64,000 nucleotides of DNA. Origin: Kiloniellaceae bacterium. Its GTDB lineage: Bacteria; Pseudomonadota; Alphaproteobacteria; Kiloniellales; J153. Below the pieces are notes generated by a model. That model saw nothing but the letters and a program-made list of their open reading frames with translations. It searched no databases and was not told the DNA's origin. Position numbers and translations under genes: made by a program. The stretch is taken from assembly GCA_021776055.1 (NCBI GenBank), contig JAJFGP010000144.1, positions 1-64,000 of the forward strand, written 5' to 3'. This document shows positions 49,848 through 64,000 of this stretch, piece after piece; the first letter of the stretch is position 1; each line of letters begins with the position of its first letter.

Positions 49848-50927
49848 CTACAACACTCCGTTCTTGGTGTCGGAAAACGCACTCACATGATGGCTTGCGA
49901 GCGGCGTACCGCGCTTGAGGTCCGCCGTCGCCCGCTCGCCGAGCACGCGGCGCAGCAGCTTGGGCGCGAGCCCGTATCCTGGCCGGATCGAACGGACATT
50001 GTCCTTGGTGAAGACGTCGCCCGCCGAGATGTCGGCGACCACGTAGAGTGACCGTCTGAGGACGGTATTCGGTTTCTCGCTCGCCGGACTCTCTCCAGGC
50101 ACCGGGTGCATCGCTGCGTGAGCCGCGCGAACATCACGCACGAGCGCGGCAAGCTCGTCGGGTTCCAACGAAAACGCGGCGTCCGGTCCGCCGTCAGCGC
50201 GGTCGAGGGTTACATGTTTCTCGATCGCAACAGCGCCGAGGGCCGCGGCGGCAACCGCGACCGCGTTCCCCAGGGTATGGTCGGAGAGTCCGACGAGAGC
50301 CCCGTGAGACGCGCGAAGTCGAGCCATGCGAGGCAAATTGGCTTCTTCAGCCTGCGTCGGGTAACCACTCACACAATGGAGCAGTATTAAACCCGGTGCG
50401 CCAGCGCGGCCAACGGCTTCAACCGCATCACTCACGTCCCCGTCCGACGCCATGCCGGTCGAAACGATCAAGGGTTTTCCCGTCGCCGCCGCATATTCGA
50501 TCAGGGGGATGTCGACGATCTCGAACGAGGCAATCTTGTAAGCTGGCGCATTCAGGCTCTCAAGCAGGTCGACGGCAGTCGGATCGAACGGCGACGAGAA
50601 CGGAATTATGCCGATTTGCCGCGCATGCTCGAACAAGGCCGGATGCCAATCCCACGGCGTATGCGCCTCGCGGTAGAGGTCGTGGAGAGACCGGCCGTCC
50701 CACAGCCCGCCCTCGATTACGAAACCGGGCCCATGATGGTCGATTGTGATGGTATCGGCCGTGTAGGTCTGGAACTTCACCGCGTCGGCGCCTGCCTGCT
50801 TGGCCGCATCGATCAGGCGGAAGGCGCGCTCGATCTCGCCGTTGTGGTTACCCGATATTTCGGCGATGACGAACGGCGGTTCAGAGTCACAGATGGATCG
50901 TCCCGCGATTGAGATTGTCGTCGTCAT
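49848..50927 (-). CDS. pseI: Pseudaminic acid synthase
   Basis: MTTTISIAGRSICDSEPPFVIAEISGNHNGEIERAFRLIDAAKQAGADAVKFQTYTADTITI...GLSDHTLGNAVAVAAAALGAVAIEKHVTLDRADGGPDAAFSLEPDE. Confidence 0.95.
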   Translation of the reverse strand: MTTTISIAGRSICDSEPPFVIAEISGNHNGEIERAFRLIDAAKQAGADAVKFQTYTADTITIDHHGPGFVIEGGLWDGRSLHDLYREAHTPWDWHPALFEHARQIGIIPFSSPFDPTAVDLLESLNAPAYKIASFEIVDIPLIEYAAATGKPLIVSTGMASDGDVSDAVEAVGRAGAPGLILLHCVSGYPTQAEEANLPRMARLRASHGALVGLSDHTLGNAVAVAAAALGAVAIEKHVTLDRADGGPDAAFSLEPDELAALVRDVRAAHAAMHPVPGESPASEKPNTVLRRSLYVVADISAGDVFTKDNVRSIRPGYGLAPKLLRRVLGERATADLKRGTPLASHHVSAFSDTKNGVL

Positions 50928-50928
50928 G

Positions 50929-52368
50929 TCAACCGCTGCTCGAACCTTGCCGAAAATAGTCTTCACCCGCGGGCCGGTAGCCGGCTGCCTGGAATAGGGC
51001 GAGCGACGCGGCATTCTCCGGCTTTACGTAGGCGATGATATCGCCGCCCGGCACCAAGTCGCGGGCTAGTCCAAGAGCAGCCTGCGCGACGCCCGTACGC
51101 CGTTCTTCGGGGGCGGTGACGATGGAAACTTCGCGGCTCTCCAAGACGCGATCCAGCCGCACAAACCCACATGGCTGTTCGCCATGTTCGACCATGGTGA
51201 ACAGGCAATCGTCGTCCTCAAGCTTGGCCTCAAGCCACGCGACATGTTCGTCCCAGGCGGGCGGTTCTGGGTTGCGGGCGTACCGTCGCGTCTCCGGGTT
51301 GCGTTGCCAGGAAAACAGAATTTCTGCATCGCTGGCTTCGGTAGCCCTCAGTCTCACCGGCGCACCGTCCCGTGCCACACGAGGCGGCACCACCGCTGCC
51401 GCCGCCCGGAAAGCGCCGCGTCCGTCGCAGAGCTCGGCTGCTCGCCGGCTCATGGCGCTCAAGGCGTGCTCGTCCTGCGCGATGGTTGAGATAGCCTCGG
51501 CGAGTACATCTACACTTAGCATCTCCACCGAACCCACATATCGAGCGGCGCCGTCGCGTTCGAGCGCGGCGGCGTTGTCACGCTGATTTTCGGCGACCGT
51601 GACAACCAGAGATGGCAGGCCGATCACGCAGCGCTCCCAGGTGCTACCCCCTGCGGCCCCGATGGCAAGGTCGGCGGCGATCATTCGCTCGGCCATGGCC
51701 GCGCCATCCAGGTCAACGTGAACGGTGATATATCCAGCGGGATGCGTTCCTGCCATTTCCTTCAGGCGGGTGAGGTTGGATGCCGCAGCGCCGAGCACCA
51801 CATCGATTCGCGCTTGCGGCAACGCGTGCATCACAGCGGCCACAGCGAGCGAGGCGAGATCGTGAGGATCGGTCTGGCCTGGCGCGATGAGCACCCGGTC
51901 AACCGAAAGCCGGGTTCGGGCACGCCGCCGCGCAAGTCGGAACTCCGGACGTAGGAGGGCATGATTCGGGCCGAGAAGGAGACGACAGCCATCTGGAACC
52001 TTGCCGGCATATTCGTCGACTGTCCGGCCCGGCGTGGGGTCGAGCAGCACATCACAATCATGGTGCCTGTCCGCCAGGTCGTCCATTGCCATCAAGACAA
52101 GCGCCTTGCCGCGAAGCGCGCGCTCGGCCTCGGCATCTCTCGCGTAGTCGTCGACGACGACGAGCGTCGCGCCAAAGTCATCACTATTAGTCAGGAATTC
52201 TTCTTCCAGGAATGGCACCGTCGCAGGCGCCTGAGGGTTGACCTGGAACCCCGGCCGCCAGCCGAGCACGGCGAGCTGACGGGCGAGCGCATGACAACGC
52301 ACGACATGACCGCCACCAATCTCCGGTGAGGCCTGACAGACGAACAAGACGCATGGCTCACCGCTCAT
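50929..52368 (-). CDS. pseG: Fused PseG UDP-sugar hydrolase + PseH GNAT acetyltransferase
   Basis: N-term GGGHVVRCHALARQLAVLGW...AAGGSTWERCVIGLPSLVVTVAENQRDNA; C-term GNAT VRLRATEASDAEILFSWQRNPETRRYARNPEPPAWDEHVAWLEAKLED. Confidence 0.9.
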   Translation of the reverse strand: MSGEPCVLFVCQASPEIGGGHVVRCHALARQLAVLGWRPGFQVNPQAPATVPFLEEEFLTNSDDFGATLVVVDDYARDAEAERALRGKALVLMAMDDLADRHHDCDVLLDPTPGRTVDEYAGKVPDGCRLLLGPNHALLRPEFRLARRRARTRLSVDRVLIAPGQTDPHDLASLAVAAVMHALPQARIDVVLGAAASNLTRLKEMAGTHPAGYITVHVDLDGAAMAERMIAADLAIGAAGGSTWERCVIGLPSLVVTVAENQRDNAAALERDGAARYVGSVEMLSVDVLAEAISTIAQDEHALSAMSRRAAELCDGRGAFRAAAAVVPPRVARDGAPVRLRATEASDAEILFSWQRNPETRRYARNPEPPAWDEHVAWLEAKLEDDDCLFTMVEHGEQPCGFVRLDRVLESREVSIVTAPEERRTGVAQAALGLARDLVPGGDIIAYVKPENAASLALFQAAGYRPAGEDYFRQGSSSG

Positions 52369-53006
52369 GAGTTCTTTCGGAAGACCCACCAAGTGAGGTT
52401 GTCGAGCCCCGTCGCGCGCTTCCAAAAAAAGCCGTAATCGACCAACGATAAAGTGGGGAAGCTGTTCATCCAGAGCTCGCCGAAGTCGCGTTTGAACAGA
52501 AGGCCGTCCTGATTGCGATACCGAACCTCTTCCGGCGTATCTGAGAAATACTCAATGCAGGCGATGTACTTGTTCGAGACGCGATAAATTTCCGTGCAGG
52601 CCGCGCCCAAATCTGCCGGCGAGATGTGAATCAACACCCCGCTCGTAAACACCATGTCAGCGGCACCATCGGGCAAATCAATCGACTGGGCGACGCCATC
52701 GTAGATATCATCCGCCGCCAGCACATCATCGGCAATGAGGCGCTTTCGCGCTGACTCATTGGGTTCAATCGCCATCAAACGAGCGTCCGTGAGATCGCCC
52801 AGCGCACGCAGATTGAGGCCAATATTAGCACCGACCTCAAATATGCTGGTCGGTGGATCGCCGCTCAGAGGGGCGAGGATTTCGCGCCACATGCCGCGCC
52901 GTGTTTCCATGATCTCCGGCACCGGCGCATTCCGTTCGACGTAGGCATCGCCGAAGTCACCCTGCCATGCATCGAGTTGTTGTGACGGGATATCTTTCTT
53001 ACCCAT
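52365..53006 (-). CDS. Pseudaminic-acid-biosynthesis-associated methylase
   Basis: MGKKDIPSQQLDAWQGDFGDAYVERNAPVPEIMETRRGMWREIL...SIFEVGANIGLNLRAL; within pse operon. Confidence 0.85.
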   Translation of the reverse strand: MGKKDIPSQQLDAWQGDFGDAYVERNAPVPEIMETRRGMWREILAPLSGDPPTSIFEVGANIGLNLRALGDLTDARLMAIEPNESARKRLIADDVLAADDIYDGVAQSIDLPDGAADMVFTSGVLIHISPADLGAACTEIYRVSNKYIACIEYFSDTPEEVRYRNQDGLLFKRDFGELWMNSFPTLSLVDYGFFWKRATGLDNLTWWVFRKNS

Positions 53007-53757
53007 GAGCTTGGCCGTGCAATTGAGAGGCTGTACAGCCGCGCGCGCGATCGATGTGCGCCGCATTCATAGCCGTGATCTCGGGATGTCGTTCGAGTAC
53101 CGCTAAAACGTCGCCGTACCCAGGAAGCTCGCCCGGTAGATGAGCGGACAACGCCGTGAGAAATTCGAAATCCTCGGGGTAGTCCAACGTCCAGCGCATG
53201 CCCTCGACACCGTGACCAGGTCCGGCGAAATTAGCGTGCCGGATATCGTCTCGCGTGCGCAGCCAAGGGGTTACGTGTTCTCGCTCGTGGGAAGTCCGCG
53301 CTTCCCGCGAGGCACGATTGAGGGCCCCGATGGTAAACGCCTCGCAGTCCAGGCCATGGGGCCAGCTCGGCGGCATGTTGTTGCAGGCGTAGTCGGCGTC
53401 TTCCTTTGTCCGCAACGCGAGAACCTTCGAGCAAATCTCTGGATCGATCAACGGGCAGTCGCTGGTCACCCGCATGACAACCTTGGCACGGACAACCTCG
53501 GCCGCTTGGCGATAGCGATCAAGCACATCACGTTCCGAGCCACGGACGACGACGGTCCCACAGCGCTCTGCTTCCTCGGCCACCGGATCGGAATCGCCGG
53601 TATCAGGGATCGCGCAGCACACGACATCTGCGTTGCTTATGGCGTTGCACCGCTCCAAAACGTGCGACAGTACGGTGCGACCGGCCAAGTTCAGAAGGAC
53701 CTTGCCGGGCAACCGGGTCGATCCCATGCGGGCCTGCACGATGACCGCCGTTGTCAT
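52999..53757 (-). CDS. pseF: CMP-pseudaminic acid cytidylyltransferase
   Basis: TTAVIVQARMGSTRLPGKVLLNLAGRTVLSHVLERC...VMRVTSDCPLIDPEI. Confidence 0.9.
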   Translation of the reverse strand: MTTAVIVQARMGSTRLPGKVLLNLAGRTVLSHVLERCNAISNADVVCCAIPDTGDSDPVAEEAERCGTVVVRGSERDVLDRYRQAAEVVRAKVVMRVTSDCPLIDPEICSKVLALRTKEDADYACNNMPPSWPHGLDCEAFTIGALNRASREARTSHEREHVTPWLRTRDDIRHANFAGPGHGVEGMRWTLDYPEDFEFLTALSAHLPGELPGYGDVLAVLERHPEITAMNAAHIDRARGCTASQLHGQAHG

Positions 53758-54974
53758 CGCGCCCCCTTGATCGCACGGCCAAGGCTCTCCACCACCCGAT
53801 CAACATCGTCGTCCGCCATGGCCGGAAACAGCGGCAGAGACAGGCAACGGGCGTAGTATTTGTCGGCGCCGGGCAACAAAATCTCGCCGTAACGCTGCTT
53901 GTAATATGGCTGATGGTGAACCGGGATGTAATGTACCTGGGTTCCGATGCCGCGTTCGCGCAAATCACTCATCAATGCCGCTCGATCCATACCGGCAGCT
54001 TTGAAATCGATCAGGACCACGTACAAATGCCAGCCGCTTTCACTATCGACCATGCGCGGGATCGGCCGCACCACCGGCGCGAGCGGCGCCAAGGCTTTAT
54101 CGTAGAGCGCGGCGAGTTCGCGACGGCGGGCGAGGAAGCGATCGAGTTTGCCGAGTTGGCTGAGGCCCAGAGCACAATTGATATCGCTGGCCCGGTAATT
54201 GAAGCCCGGCTCGCCCATCTCGTAATACCAGGGGTTAACCGTTCCGCGATCGTCGAAGCCGAGCGCCTTGTTCTCAAGCCGCACCGGATCGCGCTCCATA
54301 CCGTGATTCCTAAACCGCTTTAAGCGCTCATAGAGGTCTTGGTGGTTCGTCGTCACCACGCCCCCTTCGCCCATTGCCACAAGCTTCACCGGATGGAGCG
54401 AAAACACGGCCATGTCGCTATGCCGACAGGCGCCAACCGGGACATCGCGATCGTCACCAAAGCGCGCCACCGCGCCGATCGCGTGGCAGGCGTCCTCGAT
54501 CACCGCAAGCCCGTGGTCGCGGGCAACCTCGGCGACCATGGCCATATCAACCGATTGGCCGTTCATATGGACAGGAACGACAGCCTTCGCCTTACCGCCG
54601 GCCCGCGTGAGGGCGGCTGCCAGGCTGGGCTCATCGAGCAGACCGGTGTCGGCGTCAACGTCGGCGAACGCCACCTCCGCACCGACATACCGCACCGCAT
54701 TGGCGGTGGCGAGAAAGGTCATGCTGGGGACGATGACGACATCGCCTTCACCGAGGCCGCGCGCAAGCATGGCGAGATGCAGCCCGGCCGTACCGCTTGA
54801 GCAAGCCACGGCGAAGCGTGCGCCGGCGCGTGCCGCAAAGGCCTCTTCGAACGCGGCAACCTTAGGACCGGTGGTCAGCCAGTCGCCGCGCAGCACTTCG
54901 GCGACCGCGGTGATGTCTTCATCATCGATACACTGTCGGCCGTAAGGCAGAACCGGCACGGTGGCGGCGTTCAA
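53754..54974 (-). CDS. pseC: UDP-4-amino-4,6-dideoxy-sugar aminotransferase
   Basis: VPVLPYGRQCIDDEDITAVAEVLRGDWLTTGPKVAAFEEAFAARAGARFAVACSSGTAGLHLAMLA; likely TTG start overlapping pseB stop. Confidence 0.92.
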   Translation of the reverse strand: MNAATVPVLPYGRQCIDDEDITAVAEVLRGDWLTTGPKVAAFEEAFAARAGARFAVACSSGTAGLHLAMLARGLGEGDVVIVPSMTFLATANAVRYVGAEVAFADVDADTGLLDEPSLAAALTRAGGKAKAVVPVHMNGQSVDMAMVAEVARDHGLAVIEDACHAIGAVARFGDDRDVPVGACRHSDMAVFSLHPVKLVAMGEGGVVTTNHQDLYERLKRFRNHGMERDPVRLENKALGFDDRGTVNPWYYEMGEPGFNYRASDINCALGLSQLGKLDRFLARRRELAALYDKALAPLAPVVRPIPRMVDSESGWHLYVVLIDFKAAGMDRAALMSDLRERGIGTQVHYIPVHHQPYYKQRYGEILLPGADKYYARCLSLPLFPAMADDDVDRVVESLGRAIKGAR

Positions 54975-56026
54975 TTCTCGACCTCGCGCATCATGGCCTC
55001 CATACCTTCGGCATCGAGCCATTCGTCGTTGGTGTCGCTGGCATACTGAAAGTCTTCCGCCACCGGCGCCGCGCCGTTGGCCGTGTAGTTTCCGCCGTCC
55101 CAGAAGGCGTGCGCAGGTTCGATCACATAGCGATCTTCGAGGGCAAGCGTGTTGCGCGCGTCGTCAATGGTGATCATCACCTCGTGGAGTTTTTCACCGG
55201 GACGAATGCCGATCACTTCGGTCGGTAGGCCGGGGCCAATCGCTTGGGCTATATCGGTGATGTGCGTTGACGGGATCTTGGGTACGAAGATTTCGCCGCC
55301 TTGCATCATGGCGAGTGACGAGAGCACAAAATTGACGCCCTGGGGAAGCCCGATCCAAAAACGTGTCATGCGAAGATCGGTGATCGGCAGGCTCTTAGCG
55401 CCTTCGGCAACCATCTCTCGAAACAGCGGTACCACACTGCCGCGCGAACCGAACACGTTGCCATAGCGCACCACCGAGAAGCGCGGCCCGCCGCGGCCGC
55501 TCAGATTGTTCGCGGCAACGAAGATCTTGTCGGAGGCTAGCTTGCTTGCGCCGTAGAGATTGATCGGGCTCGCCGCCTTGTCGGTCGACAGGGCGACCAC
55601 CTTATCGATATTGCAGCGAATCGCTGCCTTGACCACGTTCTCGGCGCCCATAACGTTGGTGTGGATGCATTCGAACGGGTTGTACTCAGCGGTCGGGACA
55701 TGCTTGAGCGCGGCGGCATGCACCACGTAGTCGACATCGCGCATAGCAAGTTCGAGTCGGTCCATATCACGCACATCGCCGATGAAATAACGCATGCATG
55801 GGTGCGCCTTGATGCTGAACTGGCGCTCCATCTCATATTGCTTCTGCTCGTCACGCGAGAATACGATGAGGCGCCGCGGCGCGTAGCGCGCCAGCACTGC
55901 CTTGACTAGCGCGCGGCCGAATGAGCCGGTGCCGCCGGTGATCAACAAATCCTTGCCATCGAGGTCGACGGTGGGTGAATCGAAGGGGCGCAGGGGGGCT
56001 GGCATCATCTCAGTTAGTCCGCGCAC
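54971..56026 (-). CDS. pseB: UDP-GlcNAc 4,6-dehydratase (inverting)
   Basis: LLITGGTGSFGRALVKAVLARYAPRRLIVFSRDEQKQYEMERQFS...YVVHAAALKHVPTAEYNPFECIHTNVMGAENVV. Confidence 0.95.
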   Translation of the reverse strand: MRGLTEMMPAPLRPFDSPTVDLDGKDLLITGGTGSFGRALVKAVLARYAPRRLIVFSRDEQKQYEMERQFSIKAHPCMRYFIGDVRDMDRLELAMRDVDYVVHAAALKHVPTAEYNPFECIHTNVMGAENVVKAAIRCNIDKVVALSTDKAASPINLYGASKLASDKIFVAANNLSGRGGPRFSVVRYGNVFGSRGSVVPLFREMVAEGAKSLPITDLRMTRFWIGLPQGVNFVLSSLAMMQGGEIFVPKIPSTHITDIAQAIGPGLPTEVIGIRPGEKLHEVMITIDDARNTLALEDRYVIEPAHAFWDGGNYTANGAAPVAEDFQYASDTNDEWLDAEGMEAMMREVEN

Positions 56027-56063: not shown

Positions 56064-56075
56064 CACGCTACCGCA
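56064..56075 (-). promoter_or_regulatory. ops-like (RfaH recruitment) element in pseB leader
   Basis: Minus strand reads TGCGGTAGCGTG; 11/12 identical to E. coli ops GGCGGTAGCGTG. Confidence 0.55.
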
Positions 56076-56180: not shown

Positions 56181-56843
56181 TTATGCGTCGGCCTTGCCCG
56201 GCCTTCTCGTCAAGCGCAGCACTTTGGGAGCCAGGATGCGGTCATCGGGCAAATATTTGCGCAACGCCTCATAGGTCGCCTGGGGGGTTTTGATGTCGGT
56301 GAGCAGCACGGCGTCGAAATCCCGCGCGCGCTCTAGGGTCGTGGCCACCGGTAATCCGGCCGCTCTCGCTCCGTTATAGCCCTGCTCGATTACCAAGGTC
56401 AGTTCGACCGGCTGCTCAATGGCCGCCAGAGTGGCTATTTCGGCTAGATCTCCGGCGCCGGCCAAGGCCAGTCGCCGCCAGCCCCGGGTATGACTGTAAG
56501 CGAGGCAGTCGGCGCATTGGGCGCGGGCATTGCGGAAGAAGCCGAGGGACGAAGTGAGATATTCGCCGACCAGCCGGCTCTTCTCGGAGAAACCCGCCGG
56601 CGTCAGGAAATAGGCGTAGCGCTTGGCCGGAACCGCTTGTGCCTTGACCCAGCCCTTGCGGACGCAGCGCTTGAAATAAGCGTTGGCCAGCCCCACAGCG
56701 ATGCCGAGACGCAACGCCAGCGAACGCTGGGTCACCGATTGGTCGCCCTCGATTGAACTGAGAAGCCGCAAGCAGAATTCGCTCTCTAGCGCCTCTTTCG
56801 AAACCCGCATTGCCGATGGCGAGCCTTCCATCATGCAGCCCAT
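56181..56843 (-). CDS. EPS-associated winged-HTH regulator with C-terminal Rossmann-like sensor domain (copy A)
   Basis: wHTH DQSVTQRSLALRLGIAVGLANAYFKRCVRKGWVKAQAVPAKRYAYFLTPAGFSEKSRLVGEYL; C-term RRLALAGAGDLAEIATLAAIEQPVELTLVIEQGYNGARAAGLPVATT. Alternative ATG starts at 56834 and 56831. Confidence 0.85.
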   Translation of the reverse strand: MGCMMEGSPSAMRVSKEALESEFCLRLLSSIEGDQSVTQRSLALRLGIAVGLANAYFKRCVRKGWVKAQAVPAKRYAYFLTPAGFSEKSRLVGEYLTSSLGFFRNARAQCADCLAYSHTRGWRRLALAGAGDLAEIATLAAIEQPVELTLVIEQGYNGARAAGLPVATTLERARDFDAVLLTDIKTPQATYEALRKYLPDDRILAPKVLRLTRRPGKADA

Positions 56844-56852
56844 GGATTGACA

Positions 56853-56888
56853 TTCATGGCGTGAACATTACAGCGTTCATGCCATGAA
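56853..56888. promoter_or_regulatory. Two 13-bp palindromic putative operators
   Basis: TTCATGGCGTGAA (56853-56865) and TTCATGCCATGAA (56876-56888). Confidence 0.6.
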
Positions 56889-56894
56889 TGTCAA
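56867..56894 (-). promoter_or_regulatory. Sigma70-like promoter for regulator A
   Basis: Minus strand TTGACA (56894-56889), 16-nt spacer, TGTAAT (56872-56867). Confidence 0.55.
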
Positions 56895-56905
56895 TCCATG
56901 GGCTG

Positions 56906-57085
56906 GGTGTAGCTGGACAAAGATCGCCGGGCACTCCCGGCAGAACTCATCGATCACGGTGAGGATCCGGAATGCATTCCCGTCATGGGTGAGATCGGCA
57001 ACTAAATCGTAGCTCCAGGCATGCCCGTGATGTTGTGGACGGAGTCGCATGCACGGCCCGTCGTTCAGCCAGCTTTGCGAGAAAC
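56906..57085 (-). mobile_element. IS3-family (IS407-like) transposase OrfB remnant
   Basis: Reverse-strand FSQSWLNDGPCMRLRPQHHGHAWSYDLVADLTHDGNAFRILTVIDEFCRECPAIFVQLHPA; DDE rve-core region only, no complete ORF. Confidence 0.8.
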
Positions 57086-57091
57086 CGCAGG

Positions 57092-57982
57092 TTAGGTGGA
57101 GGCTGATTCGGAGCCTTTCGTTAGAGACGTCAAGACGCCGTTCTCGTCGACGTATCCCAGGCGGGTGAGTTCCTTGCCGCAGGCCTGTTTCAGATTTTCC
57201 ACCTGCTCCGCGCTCAGCACACCCTGCCAGACCCCGATCCGCCCCTCGCGAAAGAACGGCACTTTTCCATGAGGATCGCCTTCCGCGAACCCGTGCGCTT
57301 TTTCTTGGCCGGCAAGGGTGTCGAAATCGGTTGCTTGAATCGAGTCGGCCAGCCGGGCCTCATCGATCCGCGCGTTCAAGAACGTCAGAACCTGAGCGAA
57401 GGTAGCCATTGGCGAGCGCACCATGTCCTCGTAGCGAAGAACGAGCGGGGACAATCCGGCAGCATCGATCCAGCTCGCCTGAAAGCGCTGCCAGCTTGTG
57501 GGAAATTGATCGACATAGGTCTCGTCGGCCGGCACATAGTAGGTATCGGTCGCCAGGGCCTGAACAGCGCGCTCGATGGGCATTCCGGTGTGATGCCCGA
57601 AAGAGACCGCAACATCGAAGGGATTCCGGACGACGAGTATCGCCCCGGCAGTGGCGTCCGGGGTGATGAGCGGGACGCCCGCGACGTGAATACAGGCATT
57701 GTGGGTCTTGACGAAGGTGACACCCTGGGCATTTTGTTGTGCTACCTGCCGGTGCACTAAAGGCCGGACTTGCGCCATGGATTGCTGCGATTGGTCGTCC
57801 TGATCCATGCCCGCCCGCCGGTATCGGTCGACACCGCTATCCCCGATCCCGAACGAAATGGCTTGGTTTAATTCGAGTGGTCGGCCAAGCGGACGGTTCG
57901 CAGCAAAGTAGTTGGCCAGAAACAGCCGCAACCAGGTGTTGCCGGACTTCGGATAGGACGCCAGCCAAACAATTCCGCTCAT
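57092..57982 (-). CDS. Sulfotransferase (PAPS-dependent)
   Basis: MSGIVWLASYPKSGNTWLRLFLANYF (PAPS-binding PKSGNTW) and AILVVRNPFDVAVSFGHH; likely start MSGIVW within ORF 57092..58186. Confidence 0.85.
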   Translation of the reverse strand: MSGIVWLASYPKSGNTWLRLFLANYFAANRPLGRPLELNQAISFGIGDSGVDRYRRAGMDQDDQSQQSMAQVRPLVHRQVAQQNAQGVTFVKTHNACIHVAGVPLITPDATAGAILVVRNPFDVAVSFGHHTGMPIERAVQALATDTYYVPADETYVDQFPTSWQRFQASWIDAAGLSPLVLRYEDMVRSPMATFAQVLTFLNARIDEARLADSIQATDFDTLAGQEKAHGFAEGDPHGKVPFFREGRIGVWQGVLSAEQVENLKQACGKELTRLGYVDENGVLTSLTKGSESAST

Positions 57983-58229
57983 CTGAGACGACGGCCCTCT
58001 CAATACCCGGCACGTTGCGATCCAGCCTGTGTGGCGCTCCTGGGTCTTTCTACATACCCCGGGCAGGGGAGGGCTAGCCCGATTTTGGCGGCCAGTCCGC
58101 CCGCGGTGGGCGATATGACGACTTGCCAGGGCCTGGAAGGCGCCGGGTCCGCAGGGCGAAGAGTCATCCATGGCGATGTAATTCATTGATATTTAATAGA
58201 AAAATTGCTCATGCTGACAGAATCAATCA

Positions 58230-58289
58230 TTCACATCGTGAATTTCATGCATTGACGATCATCGCCGCAAATGGTATTCATATCATGAA
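58230..58289. promoter_or_regulatory. Two 13-bp palindromic putative operators upstream of regulator B
   Basis: TTCACATCGTGAA (58230-58242) and TTCATATCATGAA (58277-58289), each followed by TTTCA; match the motif at 56853/56876. A possible TTGACG -35 (58252-58257) lies between them. Confidence 0.6.
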
Positions 58290-58298
58290 TTTCACAAC

Positions 58299-58961
58299 TT
58301 GAATGAACCAGAATCCATGACCGGAAAGCCGAAAGAGCACGCGGAACTGGACTTTTTGGCCGCTATCGAGTGCGGCGAAGTCGTCACGCAGATGACACTG
58401 CGGCAACGGATCGGTGTGTCCGTCGGGATGGTCAATGCCCTGGTAAAGAGGGCGGTTGGCAAAGGCTATGCAAAAGTGGGTCAGGCGCCGTATAAGCGCT
58501 TTGCCTACTACCTTACGCCGCAGGGGTTTGCTGAGAAGAGCCGGCTGGTCACGGAATATCTGGAAACGTCGCTCGATTTCTTTCGTACCGCTCGTAACGA
58601 ATACGCCGAGACCTTTGTTCGGGCCAAACGCATTGGACTAAAAAGGATTGTCCTGGCGGGCCGCGGTGAGCTTACAGAGATTGCCGTGCTGGCCGCGTTG
58701 GGCGAAGGCGTCTCGATTTATGCCATCCTAGATCCCGAGGCGAACGGGGCCGAGCAGCATGGTGTCAAGGTCATCAGAGACCTGTCTGAGGCGGCGGCGA
58801 TCGATGCCGTGATCATCACCGAGAGCAGATCGCCGCAGGCTACCTACGAGCAGATATGCGCGGCTTTTGACGCCTCGAGAGTATTCGCCCCGCCGTTGCT
58901 CCGCATCACGCCGAACCGGCGAGAACTGCTTGCGCGCGCCCGGCAGGAGGGGAAATCCTGA
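58299..58961 (+). CDS. EPS-associated winged-HTH regulator with C-terminal Rossmann-like domain (copy B)
   Basis: GEVVTQMTLRQRIGVSVGMVNALVKRAVGKGYAKVGQAPYKRFAYYLTPQGFAEKSRLVTEYLETSLDFFRTARNEYAETF; paralogous to copy A. TTG start at 58299 or ATG at 58317. Confidence 0.88.
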   Translation: MNEPESMTGKPKEHAELDFLAAIECGEVVTQMTLRQRIGVSVGMVNALVKRAVGKGYAKVGQAPYKRFAYYLTPQGFAEKSRLVTEYLETSLDFFRTARNEYAETFVRAKRIGLKRIVLAGRGELTEIAVLAALGEGVSIYAILDPEANGAEQHGVKVIRDLSEAAAIDAVIITESRSPQATYEQICAAFDASRVFAPPLLRITPNRRELLARARQEGKS

Positions 58962-59458
58962 TGCGCTGGTACGTTGTGTGTTGCCAGACCCGGCAGGAAG
59001 CCCGCGCCGATCTCAATCTTCGCCGCCAGGGGTTTGAATCTTGGTTGCCTCGCTTGCGGCAAACGCGGCGGCATGCGCGGCGCATCGACAACGTGTTGGT
59101 TCCCCTGTTTCCCGGCTATTTGTTTGTGAGCCTGGATTTGGATCAGCAGCCTTGGCGCTCAATCAACGGCACATTTGGGGTGCGCCGCCTTCTCTGCGAG
59201 AACGAGCGGCCGGCACCTCTCGTGCAAGGGTTTATCGATACCTTGCGGGAGACCGTGGATGAAGACGGTTTGGTCGCCGTACCGAAGGACGACTTCAAGT
59301 GCGGCGATCAAGTGCGTCTGATCGCGGGCCCGTTCGCCGATATGGTTGGCACGCTCGCGCGCCTAACCGACAAGGACCGGGTCGCGGTGCTGTTGAATGT
59401 GCTGGGGCGTGAAGTGCAAGCGTTGGTTTCACGCCGGGTGTTGGTGTCGGCCGGCTGA
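58961..59458 (+). CDS. RfaH-like NusG paralog (transcription antitermination)
   Basis: MRWYVVCCQTRQEARADLNLRRQGFESWLPRL...PLFPGYLFVSLDLDQQPWRSINGTFGVRRLL...VAVLLNVLGREVQALV; resembles RfaH (PLFPNYLFV, TINATRGV, LLLNLINKEI). Confidence 0.92.
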   Translation: MRWYVVCCQTRQEARADLNLRRQGFESWLPRLRQTRRHARRIDNVLVPLFPGYLFVSLDLDQQPWRSINGTFGVRRLLCENERPAPLVQGFIDTLRETVDEDGLVAVPKDDFKCGDQVRLIAGPFADMVGTLARLTDKDRVAVLLNVLGREVQALVSRRVLVSAG

Positions 59459-59507
59459 GCTAGGGCTGGTCCGCACCTCTCTTTAACGGATTTATGGCGT
59501 TAGGTCG

Positions 59508-61421
59508 ATGTGTGGCATCGCGGGACTATTCGCGATCGACGGGAGTCTCGACGATGACGCGCTGGCTCGCGTTGGCGGTGCCATGGCCGATGCGATCGCG
59601 CATCGCGGGCCGGATGGGCAGGGGGTGTGGACCGATGATGGTCTCGTTCTGGCACAGCGTCGGCTTGCCGTTATCGATCTGACACCGACGGGTGCGCAGC
59701 CGATGCTCTCGGCGGACGGGCGCTGGGCGATTACCTACAACGGTGAGCTCTACAACACGGAAGATACCCGGCAGCAGCTTGCGTCACGCGGCATAAATTG
59801 GCGCGGCACGTCGGATACCGAGGTTTTGCTTGAAGCCGTGACGGCGTGGGGCTTGGAGCGGGCGCTCGCGGCTATCAACGGCATGTTCGCCATGGCCCTT
59901 TGGGACCGGCGCGAGCGGCGGCTCCACTTCGTTCGTGACCGGCTTGGTATCAAGCCGCTCTATATCGGCCGGCAGGGCGGTCGAATCGCGTTTGCGTCGG
60001 AATTGAAGGCCTTAGCTGTTCTGCCCGGCTTTCTTGGCGAGATGGATGAAAGCGCGTTGGCCGGCTTCCTTCGTTTCGGCTATGTCCCGGCGCCACGGTC
60101 GATCTGGAGCAATGTCACGAAAGTTCAACCTGGTGAATGGATCTCCGTTGGCGCCGACGGGCAGATGGATAAGCGGTTCTATTGGTCCGCGGCCGAGATT
60201 GCGCGCAATGGTCTCGACAATCCATTCACTGGTGACGACACGGCCGCCGTGGATGCTCTTGAAAACCTTCTCACGGACGCGGTTGGGCGGCAGATGGTCT
60301 CGGACGTGCCGCTTGGTGCGTTTCTGTCGGGTGGTATCGATTCCTCGACTGTTGCCGCGCTCATGTGCCGGGCGGAACGTGGACCCGTGCGCACCTTTAC
60401 AATCGGTTTCGCCGAGCGAGGGTACGATGAAGCAACGCACGCGGCGCGTGTCGCCGCACACCTGGGCACGGACCATACGGAGTTGACCGTCACGGCGGCG
60501 GATGCGCTTGCTCTCGTGCCGCGCCTCGCCGACATATACGACGAGCCGTTTGCCGATAGCTCGCAAATCCCGACTCATCTCGTCTCACTGCTTACCCGTC
60601 GCCACGTTACCGTAGCCCTATCGGGTGACGGCGGCGACGAGCTTTTTGGCGGTTACAACCGGTACTTGTTTTCCGCGCGCTGGGGCCGCCTACTCGCATG
60701 TGTGCCGCGGGGCGCTCGTGCCGGCTTGGCCGCGGCCCTTCGGCGCCTACCAGCGGACTCGCTTCATGGTTTGCTAAGTCGTCTACCGGGACTACCGCCA
60801 CTCGCAGCGGATAAACTCCTGAAAGTTGCGGAGATTCTGCCTCTCGATTCCGACGGGATCTACCGCCGTTTGGTCAGCCAAATCGGCGATATCGCACCAC
60901 TTATCCCCGATGTTCTAGAGCCGCGCTGGCAGTTTGACGATGATCCTCTCGCCGGTCGCGGCGATACGGTAGACCGCATGCAAAGTCTTGATACGACGAC
61001 CTATCTGCCTGACGACATCCTGACAAAAGTGGACCGCGCCTCCATGGCGCCGGCGCTTGAAGTGCGCGTGCCCTTGCTCGATCATCGTGTTGTCGAATTT
61101 GCCTGGCAGCTTTCGCGCGGGATGAAAATCCGAGGCGGCACGGGAAAGTGGGCGCTTCGCCAGGTGCTGGCGCGCCATGTGCCGCGCGACCTAGTGGAGC
61201 GGCCAAAACAGGGTTTTGGCGTGCCGCTGGCCAGTTGGTTGCGCGGACCATTGCGCGACTGGGCAGAGGACTTGCTTGATCCCTCGCGACTGGGTGCGCC
61301 GCTTGCGCCTAGCCCGGTGCGTCGCATGTGGACCGAGCACCTTAGCGGTCGCCGCAATTTTGCCTACGGCCTGTGGAATATTCTGATGTACGAGGCTTGG
61401 CGCCGACGCTGGGTGGTGTGA
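59508..61421 (+). CDS. asnB: Glutamine-hydrolysing asparagine synthase-type amidotransferase
   Basis: MCGIAGLFAIDGS...ITYNGELYN...VPLGAFLSGGIDSSTVAALM...LSGDGGDELFGGYNRY. Confidence 0.95.
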   Translation: MCGIAGLFAIDGSLDDDALARVGGAMADAIAHRGPDGQGVWTDDGLVLAQRRLAVIDLTPTGAQPMLSADGRWAITYNGELYNTEDTRQQLASRGINWRGTSDTEVLLEAVTAWGLERALAAINGMFAMALWDRRERRLHFVRDRLGIKPLYIGRQGGRIAFASELKALAVLPGFLGEMDESALAGFLRFGYVPAPRSIWSNVTKVQPGEWISVGADGQMDKRFYWSAAEIARNGLDNPFTGDDTAAVDALENLLTDAVGRQMVSDVPLGAFLSGGIDSSTVAALMCRAERGPVRTFTIGFAERGYDEATHAARVAAHLGTDHTELTVTAADALALVPRLADIYDEPFADSSQIPTHLVSLLTRRHVTVALSGDGGDELFGGYNRYLFSARWGRLLACVPRGARAGLAAALRRLPADSLHGLLSRLPGLPPLAADKLLKVAEILPLDSDGIYRRLVSQIGDIAPLIPDVLEPRWQFDDDPLAGRGDTVDRMQSLDTTTYLPDDILTKVDRASMAPALEVRVPLLDHRVVEFAWQLSRGMKIRGGTGKWALRQVLARHVPRDLVERPKQGFGVPLASWLRGPLRDWAEDLLDPSRLGAPLAPSPVRRMWTEHLSGRRNFAYGLWNILMYEAWRRRWVV

Positions 61422-61568
61422 ATTGATTTAGGTTGCGAGATGGCTTTAATCGCGGACAATAGTGCCCCCTATGCCGATGAGGGTTTGCGGAGGTCGAAGA
61501 AGACCTCGCAGATACGGCTGAAAGGCCCACATTGGGCATCGGAATTCCACTGAGTTAACTAACCGATT

Positions 61569-63815
61569 TTGCGTTTGAACATTCTCAAAATTCACTTAGG
61601 GCGGGCAGGCAGAGTTGTTGTTTCTGCTGCGTTACTGCTTGCGGTTGCGGCCTATCTCTTTCGCACGGGCGTTGTAGAGGTCCCGGCTGGTCTGGGATTC
61701 TCACATGTCCTTATTGCCGTCGTCTTTCTGTTTGCCAATGCGCTTCTAGCCGGCTGGAGACTCTCTGTCTTGGCTCGCCTTGAGGGGCACCCCTTGGCCT
61801 TGCGTACAGCACTTGAAGCCAATGCGGCGGGAGCTGCGTTGTCGCAGGTCATGATTAATTTTCTCGGCCAGGCGGCCGGTCGAGTCGCGATCATGCGCCG
61901 GGCAAACATACCTGCCGATGTAACGATTACGATCAGCGTTATCGAGCGACTGACGGCCACCGCTGTTTTAACAAGCGCGGCCGTCGTTGCGGCGTTTTTT
62001 TTGTTCGGAAAGATCAGCTTCGGGCAAGGGGCGGAGATAGATTATCTTTTGGAGGCCGGGTTTGGCCTCACCGTATCGACGCTGTTTGCCGGCGTATTTG
62101 TTTATCGCGGCCTGCTGCTCGACGTCGCGCGCCAGCTAGATTTTGGGAAGATAGGTGCCGGCTTCCTCGCCATCGCCGGAATATCTCTCGTCGTGCATGG
62201 GGCGATGCTCTCGGCCTATCTGACGCTTGCCTGGGCATTCGCCGAAGATGCCGCGCTTATCGATTTGGTGACGGCGTGTTTGATTGTCATGTTCGCGGCA
62301 AGCCTGCCGATCAGTTTTGGCGGATGGGGCGTGCGAGAACTTTCCGCCGCGGCGGTTCTGCCCTTTGTCGGTTTGACAGTCACCCAGGGTGTGTTTGTCG
62401 CTCTACTCGTCGGTGTAGGCTCGCTTATCGTCCAGCTTCCTATCTGGCTTGCTGTCTCAAACCGTGCCCAGAAAGACTCTGTGGCGGCACCTGTCCCCGA
62501 GGATAGGAGCAGAACAGTGGGGCAAACCGGCCACGCGTATTCTTCGTGGCTTGGCCTATTTGTGCCGGTGTTGGCGTCGATCGCCATTTTTTTCAATGTG
62601 CATTTGCCGACAACCGGTGGGGATTTGAATATCAATCTTGCCGATCCTTTGGCAATCGTCGGTGGGGCGCTATCGGTCGCATATTGGCTTGAACGTGGTG
62701 CGCTGCCACGCTGGCGTGTCCCCGCGCTCAACACGCTTACGGTGCTTGCCCTGGCGGTTTTGGTTTTGGCGGCCATCATTGGTTTCGTGGATTTTGGCTT
62801 TTCAGTCTGGGCGTTTCGGAACCGGCTGGGCGGTTGGCTTCTTCTTCTGGCGTATGCCGCGACAGGCGCGCTGATGGTGCTCAATCTTGGCGATGACGGC
62901 CGAAGAATGCTGTTGAAGGGGTTTGTTGTGGGGCTGACAGCCATTGCCGTTCTTGCGGTCGGCCAACTAACCTACGGTCTGCTGGGCTTGACATTTTTCG
63001 GTGAGGCCACACCCCGCAACTTGGAAGGATTTTCCCAGAACACCAACGCCTTCACATTTCTACTTGCCGGTGGCATATGTGCGATCATCGCTCTTCTAAG
63101 GGCGGAAGACTCTCGATCGAAGCAGCGAATTTGGGTGCTTGCCGCGGCCGTACTTGGCACGGCGCTCGTTCTGACTGGCTCTCGAGCCGGTTGGGGTACA
63201 TTAGCTCTCGTTTGTCTGGCCGCGCTGTTGATCGACCGACATTTGATCAAGCCGGTATTGAAGGCGGTTACGGCGGGGGCTGCGCTGGTTCTGCTCGTGG
63301 CATATATGCCAACTATCGACTTCGCGGGTGGCGAGACCGCGGGTAGCAAGACAGGGATCACCACAAATGTATTTGAGCTGCAGAACAACCCTGATTCCAA
63401 CACAGTCGCGGACACGGAACGTTGGGTATCGATCAATGGCGGCCTGCGCCTGTGGCAGGAGAATCCTATTTTTGGCGCTGGGCTAGGCGCGTACTTCGAA
63501 GAAACAAAACAGGCAGGCAAGCCGCTTGTCACACATAACACGCTGGTTTGGCTGCTTGCGGAAACCGGGTTGTTTGGTTTTCTCGCGTTCTTTGCGGCCG
63601 GTTTAACGATTCTATGGGCAATGATGCGCCGCCTTCGTGATCCCACGGATGTGGGGGCGACCACAATTTTTCTGTTTCTGCTTGCGTTTGCCTCGATGTC
63701 GATGGTCCACGAACTGTTATATCAGCGTGTACTTTGGTTCGTGCTCGGTGTTTGCCTCGCAAGTGTTCCCGCTCGACGAATTGAGCCGCCTTCGGACAAG
63801 GTGGAGATACATTAG
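61569..63815 (+). CDS. UPF0104/LPG-synthase-TM-like flippase domain fused to O-antigen ligase/Wzy-like domain
   Basis: TTG start. N-term SLPISFGGWGVRELSAAAVLPFVG; C-term FSQNTNAFTFLLAGG...TGSRAGWGTLALV...LWQENPIFGAGLGAYFEETKQAGKPLVTHNTLVWLLAETGLFGFLAFF. Confidence 0.8.
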   Translation: MRLNILKIHLGRAGRVVVSAALLLAVAAYLFRTGVVEVPAGLGFSHVLIAVVFLFANALLAGWRLSVLARLEGHPLALRTALEANAAGAALSQVMINFLGQAAGRVAIMRRANIPADVTITISVIERLTATAVLTSAAVVAAFFLFGKISFGQGAEIDYLLEAGFGLTVSTLFAGVFVYRGLLLDVARQLDFGKIGAGFLAIAGISLVVHGAMLSAYLTLAWAFAEDAALIDLVTACLIVMFAASLPISFGGWGVRELSAAAVLPFVGLTVTQGVFVALLVGVGSLIVQLPIWLAVSNRAQKDSVAAPVPEDRSRTVGQTGHAYSSWLGLFVPVLASIAIFFNVHLPTTGGDLNINLADPLAIVGGALSVAYWLERGALPRWRVPALNTLTVLALAVLVLAAIIGFVDFGFSVWAFRNRLGGWLLLLAYAATGALMVLNLGDDGRRMLLKGFVVGLTAIAVLAVGQLTYGLLGLTFFGEATPRNLEGFSQNTNAFTFLLAGGICAIIALLRAEDSRSKQRIWVLAAAVLGTALVLTGSRAGWGTLALVCLAALLIDRHLIKPVLKAVTAGAALVLLVAYMPTIDFAGGETAGSKTGITTNVFELQNNPDSNTVADTERWVSINGGLRLWQENPIFGAGLGAYFEETKQAGKPLVTHNTLVWLLAETGLFGFLAFFAAGLTILWAMMRRLRDPTDVGATTIFLFLLAFASMSMVHELLYQRVLWFVLGVCLASVPARRIEPPSDKVEIH

Positions 63816-63842
63816 GTACCATGCAAATCGAGTAGGAGAGTT

Positions 63843-64000
63843 GTGCAAGATTCTAACGTAGCCAGCGCCGAGATCGTCGATTTCTGGTTCGCTGCCGGGA
63901 TGGAGAAGCGATGGTTTGTGCGTGACCCGGCTTTCGATGCCGAAGTTCGCACGCGGCTGGCCGAATGGTATGAGCGCGCGGCAACAGGTGACTTGGATGA
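63843..64000 (+). CDS. DUF924-family protein (partial)
   Basis: GTG start; SAEIVDFWFAAGMEKRWFVRDPAFDAEVRTRLAEWYERAATGDLD; runs off the window. Confidence 0.7.
   Translation, partial: MQDSNVASAEIVDFWFAAGMEKRWFVRDPAFDAEVRTRLAEWYERAATGDLD

Follow-up and report, generated by a model that had tools for sequence, protein, structure and literature searches.

Two paralogous regulator genes, each adjoining a set of glycan genes, lie close together in the window (the whole 64,000-nucleotide stretch analysed here, from a Kiloniellaceae bacterium), and similar 13-bp palindromes precede both. The question raised by this locus is whether these palindromes are operators, which protein would bind them, and whether they connect the two neighbouring operons. 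A first-pass annotation had listed four palindromes fitting TTCAY-NN-C-RTGAA, two upstream of each regulator gene, and proposed auto- and cross-regulation of a minus-strand pse operon and a plus-strand NusG/asnB operon.

Two paralogous regulators and a rare palindrome

Copy A is encoded on the minus strand (56181..56843; candidate start codons at 56843, 56833, 56830 or 56807) and copy B on the plus strand (58299..58961; likely start ATG 58317). The two proteins, which are the only regulators of this kind found in the genome, share 43% identity over 208 aligned positions. Each combines a predicted winged helix-turn-helix (wHTH) part with about 100 amino acids of a Rossmann-like domain at the C-terminus. 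Copy A adjoins a pseudaminic acid (pse) gene cluster on the same strand (49848..56026), in which PseB (54971-56026), PseC (53754-55022), a Pse methylase (52365-53066), PseG (50929-52425) and PseI (49848-51014) all exceed the cut-off of an NCBIfam model, and a PseF-like product (52999-53757) is recognised by weaker similarity only. Copy B is followed on the plus strand by genes for an RfaH/NusG-like protein (58961..59458), an asparagine-synthase-type amidotransferase (59508..61421; TIGR01536 over cut-off) and an O-antigen ligase/polymerase-like membrane protein (61569..63815; PF04932 and PF03706 over cut-off).

Judged by its profile scores, the regulator family is related to the curated MarR_EPS family (TIGR04176) but lies outside it. 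The homology lies in the N-terminal wHTH parts, where copy A scores 53.8 bits and copy B 43.8 bits against a cut-off of 88 bits that neither reaches, and the Rossmann-like domain extends beyond it as an additional feature. Both copies share with MarR_EPS a position beside exopolysaccharide or glycan genes. Copy A also passes the Pfam HTH_24 cut-off (31.8 versus 21.9 bits), copy B taken alone passes no Pfam HTH cut-off, and both stay below the Pfam MarR_2 cut-off of 27 (18.4 for A, 17.4 for B). The conserved wHTH positions are kept in both proteins, and in the PDB the wHTH part comes closest in sequence, weakly, to MarR proteins (E 0.02). An AlphaFold model built from four sequences is confident only from about residue 90, where it forms a C-terminal alpha/beta domain (block means 63-94), and poor over the wHTH part (pLDDT about 40-46); a Foldseek search with it returned no PDB match with E under 0.001. 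Profile comparison gave a weak match to the N-terminal domain of a PglD/NeuD-like acetyltransferase (probability 36.5), which is taken as a lead only.

The four 13-mers are indeed present at 56853, 56876, 58230 and 58277, and the window holds six strand-matches to the palindrome, compared with 0.03 expected from shuffles. A genome scan, which the first-pass annotation had suggested as a check, was carried out with TTCAYNNNRTGAA, in which the fixed C is relaxed, and returned seven places in the 3.72-Mb genome; four of them are the sites described here, all inside 1.4 kb. Among the ORFs found near the other three (C3:26052, C95:16030 and C181:279), none is a glycan gene, and these sites resemble background. 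The central C of the annotated motif did not hold up, as positions 6-8 are free across the regulator family, in which the operator core is (G)TTCA-N5-TGAA(C). A chance origin of the palindromes is ruled out by the shuffles, by their genome-wide rarity and by their conservation upstream of homologues. No description of this operator was found in the open literature, which covers few subscription papers, nor did a literature search find experimental work on an operator of MarR_EPS or of the present family.

Operator conservation and promoter architecture

The set of homologues was drawn from the order to which Kiloniella belongs, from the class and, via TIGR04176, from the phylum; a scan of genome contigs with a single protein had yielded two Kiloniella laminariae loci only. 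Across 135 upstream regions, an exact site occurs in 71 and a site with at most one mismatch in 107, compared with 0.4 and 5.9 in dinucleotide shuffles. Among the full-length homologues, 66 of 102 have an exact upstream site, and about a tenth have no recognisable one. Absence of the motif upstream of orthologous regulators had been named in advance as a result that would speak against the operator reading; the opposite was found, with at most one mismatch in 92 of these 102 regions, while other windows of the same loci contain an exact site in 0.2% and a site with at most one mismatch in 2.3% of cases. Half-sites are retained even in distant family members: GTTCA-N5-TGAAC lies upstream in 15 of 33 shorter or more distant matches. 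Many members or near members of MarR_EPS share this upstream site with the present family.

Nine others of these 33 matches, from very long open frames, have GTTCA-N4-TGAAC upstream, one base shorter than the family site. Such frames, of about 700 amino acids and with MarR_EPS-like domains, occur at L113-L122 and probably encode fused proteins.

In 44 loci, two sites lie 22-24 bp apart and form a promoter cassette like that of copy A: a TTGACG/A box precedes operator 1, which takes up the spacer, and a -10-like TA separates it from operator 2, which covers the start. TTGACN adjoins operator 1 in 36 of the 44 pairs. The TA between the operators keeps a fixed distance from operator 1, being invariant at 22-bp spacing, present in 20 of 24 loci at 23 bp and less clear at 24 bp. 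At copy A, the predicted minus-strand TTGACA-N16-TGTAAT promoter was recovered, and the order on that strand is the -35 box TTGACA (56894-56889), operator 1 TTCATGGCATGAA filling the -35/-10 spacer (56876..56888), the -10-like TGTAAT (56872-56867), operator 2 TTCACGCCATGAA directly 3' of the -10 and over the expected start (56853..56865), and then the regulator gene. By comparison across the loci, the conserved operator thus overlaps the regulator's own promoter, as autoregulation would require, and the upstream conservation across homologues lends good support to the proposal of a shared operator with autoregulation.

An operator in the spacer and another over the start are the geometry expected of a repressor. 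E. coli MarR and other autorepressors of its family likewise are wHTH proteins whose palindromic operators overlap their own promoter, an overlap that is predicted here; the present regulators differ from them in having a Rossmann-like domain at the C-terminus and (G)TTCA-N5-TGAA(C) as their site, and copy A in its MarR_2 score below the cut-off. Were the regulator to activate from these operators, or to serve as an anti-silencer, the first copy B site would be well placed: it lies directly upstream of the -35 box, a position that activators often use, and three loci (L044, L046 and L055) carry additional sites at about -215. Such a role is nonetheless improbable: in the paired sites of the 44 loci, one lies between the -35 and the -10 and the next beyond the -10, a geometry of occlusion, and the -35 is close to consensus.

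A second feature of the copy A promoter, absent from the first-pass annotation, is a 31-bp inverted repeat (56836..56905; 97% identity, 8-nt loop) that encloses both operators. The repeat is real, and through it the second site nearly duplicates the first, which would suit the idea that the pair arose incidentally with the repeat, or with a mobile element, and has no regulatory role. This idea is barely credible: the nearest homologues have the pair and the promoter without the outer repeat, and the pair is conserved across the class. Because the outer 17 bp are missing in these homologues, the repeat probably arose recently, by inverted (templated) copying at a quasi-palindrome, and the operator pair that it surrounds would be older. 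Upstream of copy A, the window also contains a minus-strand open frame (56901-57110) whose peptide is reminiscent of an IS3-type transposase remnant; a Pfam search with it gave no match.

Copy B has a different layout. Each of its two strong palindromes, TTCACATCGTGAA (operator 1, 58230..58242) and TTCATATCATGAA (operator 2, 58277..58289), is followed exactly 14 bp on by a degenerate partner that had previously been missed, namely TTCATGCATTGAC (operator 1', 58244..58256, two mismatches to the palindrome) and TTCACAACTTGAA (operator 2', 58291..58303, one mismatch). The annotated plus-strand TTGACG box was confirmed at 58252-58257 and is followed, after N17, by a -10-like TATTCA (58275..58280). 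Operator 1 lies upstream of this -35 box, operator 1' overlaps it, and operator 2 overlaps the -10-like box. The 0/14/47/61 array recurs at the nearest homologue (L045, 81% identical), which has TTGACC-N17-TATTCA and a counterpart of operator 2'. The earlier interpretation of the 23- and 47-bp spacings as one versus two intervals had to be abandoned, since copy B carries an array of four sites (58230, 58244, 58277 and 58291) and the two layouts have no common period. Outside the copy-B clade, the tandem 14-bp arrangement occurs in a single long-branch row of the comparison only. The L045 genome (G156) belongs to another family of the class, yet its regulator is closer to copy B than is any homologue found within the family to which the window belongs, a likeness for which horizontal transfer is a possible explanation.

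Taken across Alphaproteobacteria, the palindromes would constitute a switch site before a whole family of polysaccharide regulators, each of which apparently controls its own operon.

Predicted targets in trans and the candidate binding protein

A site before a gene is no proof that the product of that gene binds there, and another DNA-binding protein, for example a global regulator, could be responsible. The association between site and regulator was examined with a search blind to the regulator gene, in which a flanked pair pattern (TTCAN5TGAAC-N6-11-GTTCAN5TGAA) was sought in 387 genomes of the class. The pattern occurs in 36 genomes and in none of the reversed control. Regulator matches are present in 96 of the 387 Alphaproteobacterial genomes sampled, and all 36 genomes with a flanked pair are among them (hypergeometric 4e-25, with related genomes treated as independent). 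With a stricter Y/R pattern, 23 genomes matched, 21 of which carry the regulator. Paired matches in two regulator-free genomes (G226 and G307) proved to be AT-rich repeats that lack the C/G inner flanks; they disappeared under the flanked pattern. This co-occurrence, the mere seven motif places in the genome studied here, too few for a global regulator, and the retention of half-sites by distant family members make binding by a protein other than the adjacent regulators very improbable.

Several operator pairs lie away from the regulator gene. They precede pse operons in three genomes (L126/G265, L127/G395 and L185/G208, the last with a PglD/NeuD-like gene first) and a sulfotransferase-asnB operon in a fourth (L125/G339). 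Both G265 and G339 have one regulator each, so a single protein probably serves two promoters there, and regulation of pse and asnB operons in trans, as first suggested for the present locus, finds support in these related genomes. Operator pairs were also observed before genes for CPA2-type cation/proton antiporters in two genera (L123:4248-4292 in G442 and L124:4008-4050 in G431), and a further pair was found in G092 (L184).

It is a separate matter whether copy A also binds the copy B operators, and copy B those of copy A, so that the two operons would form one cross-regulated pair. The 13-bp core common to both sets of sites, the conserved wHTH positions kept in both proteins, and the probable service of two promoters by one regulator in G265 and G339 are consistent with such exchange. 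On the other hand, the two copies fall into different clades, their layouts differ (a 23-bp pair at A versus a 14-bp tandem at B), the inner flanks read GTTCA..TGAAC at A and ATTCA..TGAAT at B, and paralogues often diverge in specificity. Mutual binding in the present genome is accordingly regarded as a possibility at somewhat less than even chances, and the preferred reading assigns each regulator to its own promoter.

A possible elongation layer and the proposed switch

Another connection between the two operons was suggested by an element that the first-pass annotation had not included. Between copy A and pseB lies an ops-like element, TGCGGTAGCGTG (56064..56075, minus strand). The word KGCGGTAGCGTG occurs once in the whole genome, at this position, and is its sole exact ops-like element. 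The sole RfaH-like gene of the genome, whose product matches only itself in a genome-wide comparison, sits in the copy-B operon. Its product scores 113.6 bits with TIGR01955, under the 144.5-bit RfaH cut-off, and passes the Pfam NusG model (PF02357). By virtue of these two unique components, the RfaH-like protein of the copy-B operon may be tied to the pse operon through the ops-like element, a link that differs from the cross-binding proposed earlier.

Comparison with related loci provides context for this link. A same-strand RfaH/NusG-like gene lies beside the regulator in 88 of the scanned loci. An ops-like 11-mer was found on the regulator's strand in 19 cases and on the other strand in none, with 1.4 expected, mostly 50-85 nt beyond the end of the RfaH-like gene. 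Seen in only 19 of 102 loci, the element is not a constant part of the module. The enrichment is seen only with the 11-base word over a longer region; the short ops word GGTAGC is not enriched upstream of the regulators (11 versus 7.5). In the copy-B operon, the stretches 58200-59510, 61400-61600 and 63800-64000 contain no ops with three or fewer mismatches, unlike the nearest homologue L045. In one clade (L147, L159 and L162), the exact ops-type GGCGGTAGCGT is located in the leader 5' of the regulator gene and not after the RfaH-like gene. The system resembles RfaH/ops in that a specialised NusG paralogue lies beside glycan genes and an ops-like GGCGGTAGCGT lies on the coding strand close to the start of a glycan operon; the protein differs from RfaH in its score below the cut-off and in having a wHTH regulator of its own encoded in cis.

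The reading we consider likely is that these wHTH-Rossmann regulators autorepress through core-promoter palindromes, that a ligand releases them, and that RfaH/ops supplies a second layer. Each regulator, presumably dimeric, would bind (G)TTCA-N5-TGAA(C) within its own core promoter. The two copy A sites, 23 bp apart, would fill the spacer between -35 and -10 and cover the start point, and at copy B the tandem palindromes 14 bp apart would cover the -35 and -10 boxes; in both cases the bound regulator would exclude RNA polymerase and thereby repress. A ligand of the Rossmann-like domain would free the regulator and turn on the downstream glycan operon. At the level of elongation, the RfaH-like protein from the copy-B operon would be recruited at ops. 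Because this element sits between copy A and the pse genes, pse expression would depend on relief of promoter repression as well as on a copy-B operon product.

The order of a wHTH part and a Rossmann-type domain is also that of Rex, an NADH-sensing wHTH-Rossmann repressor. The Rex site, TTGTGAA-N4-TTCACAA, has its half-sites in a different order from TTCAC-N3-GTGAA here, and no sequence link between Rex and the present regulators was found. A more far-reaching version takes up the faint resemblance of the C-terminal domain to the N-terminal domain of a PglD/NeuD-like acetyltransferase and would combine a repressor that senses a nucleotide-sugar intermediate and acts at paired operators with elongation control by a co-encoded RfaH-like protein and ops into a class-wide two-layer switch, in which the copy-B operon would here license the pse operon; this version is tentative and, on balance, rather unlikely.

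Collectively, the analysis assigns a predicted DNA target, the layout of a promoter and a list of targets to a polysaccharide regulator family that is large and apparently unstudied, so that experiments can directly address how surface-glycan operons are controlled in these bacteria. Sites at which RfaH-like proteins would act outside Gammaproteobacteria are predicted as well.
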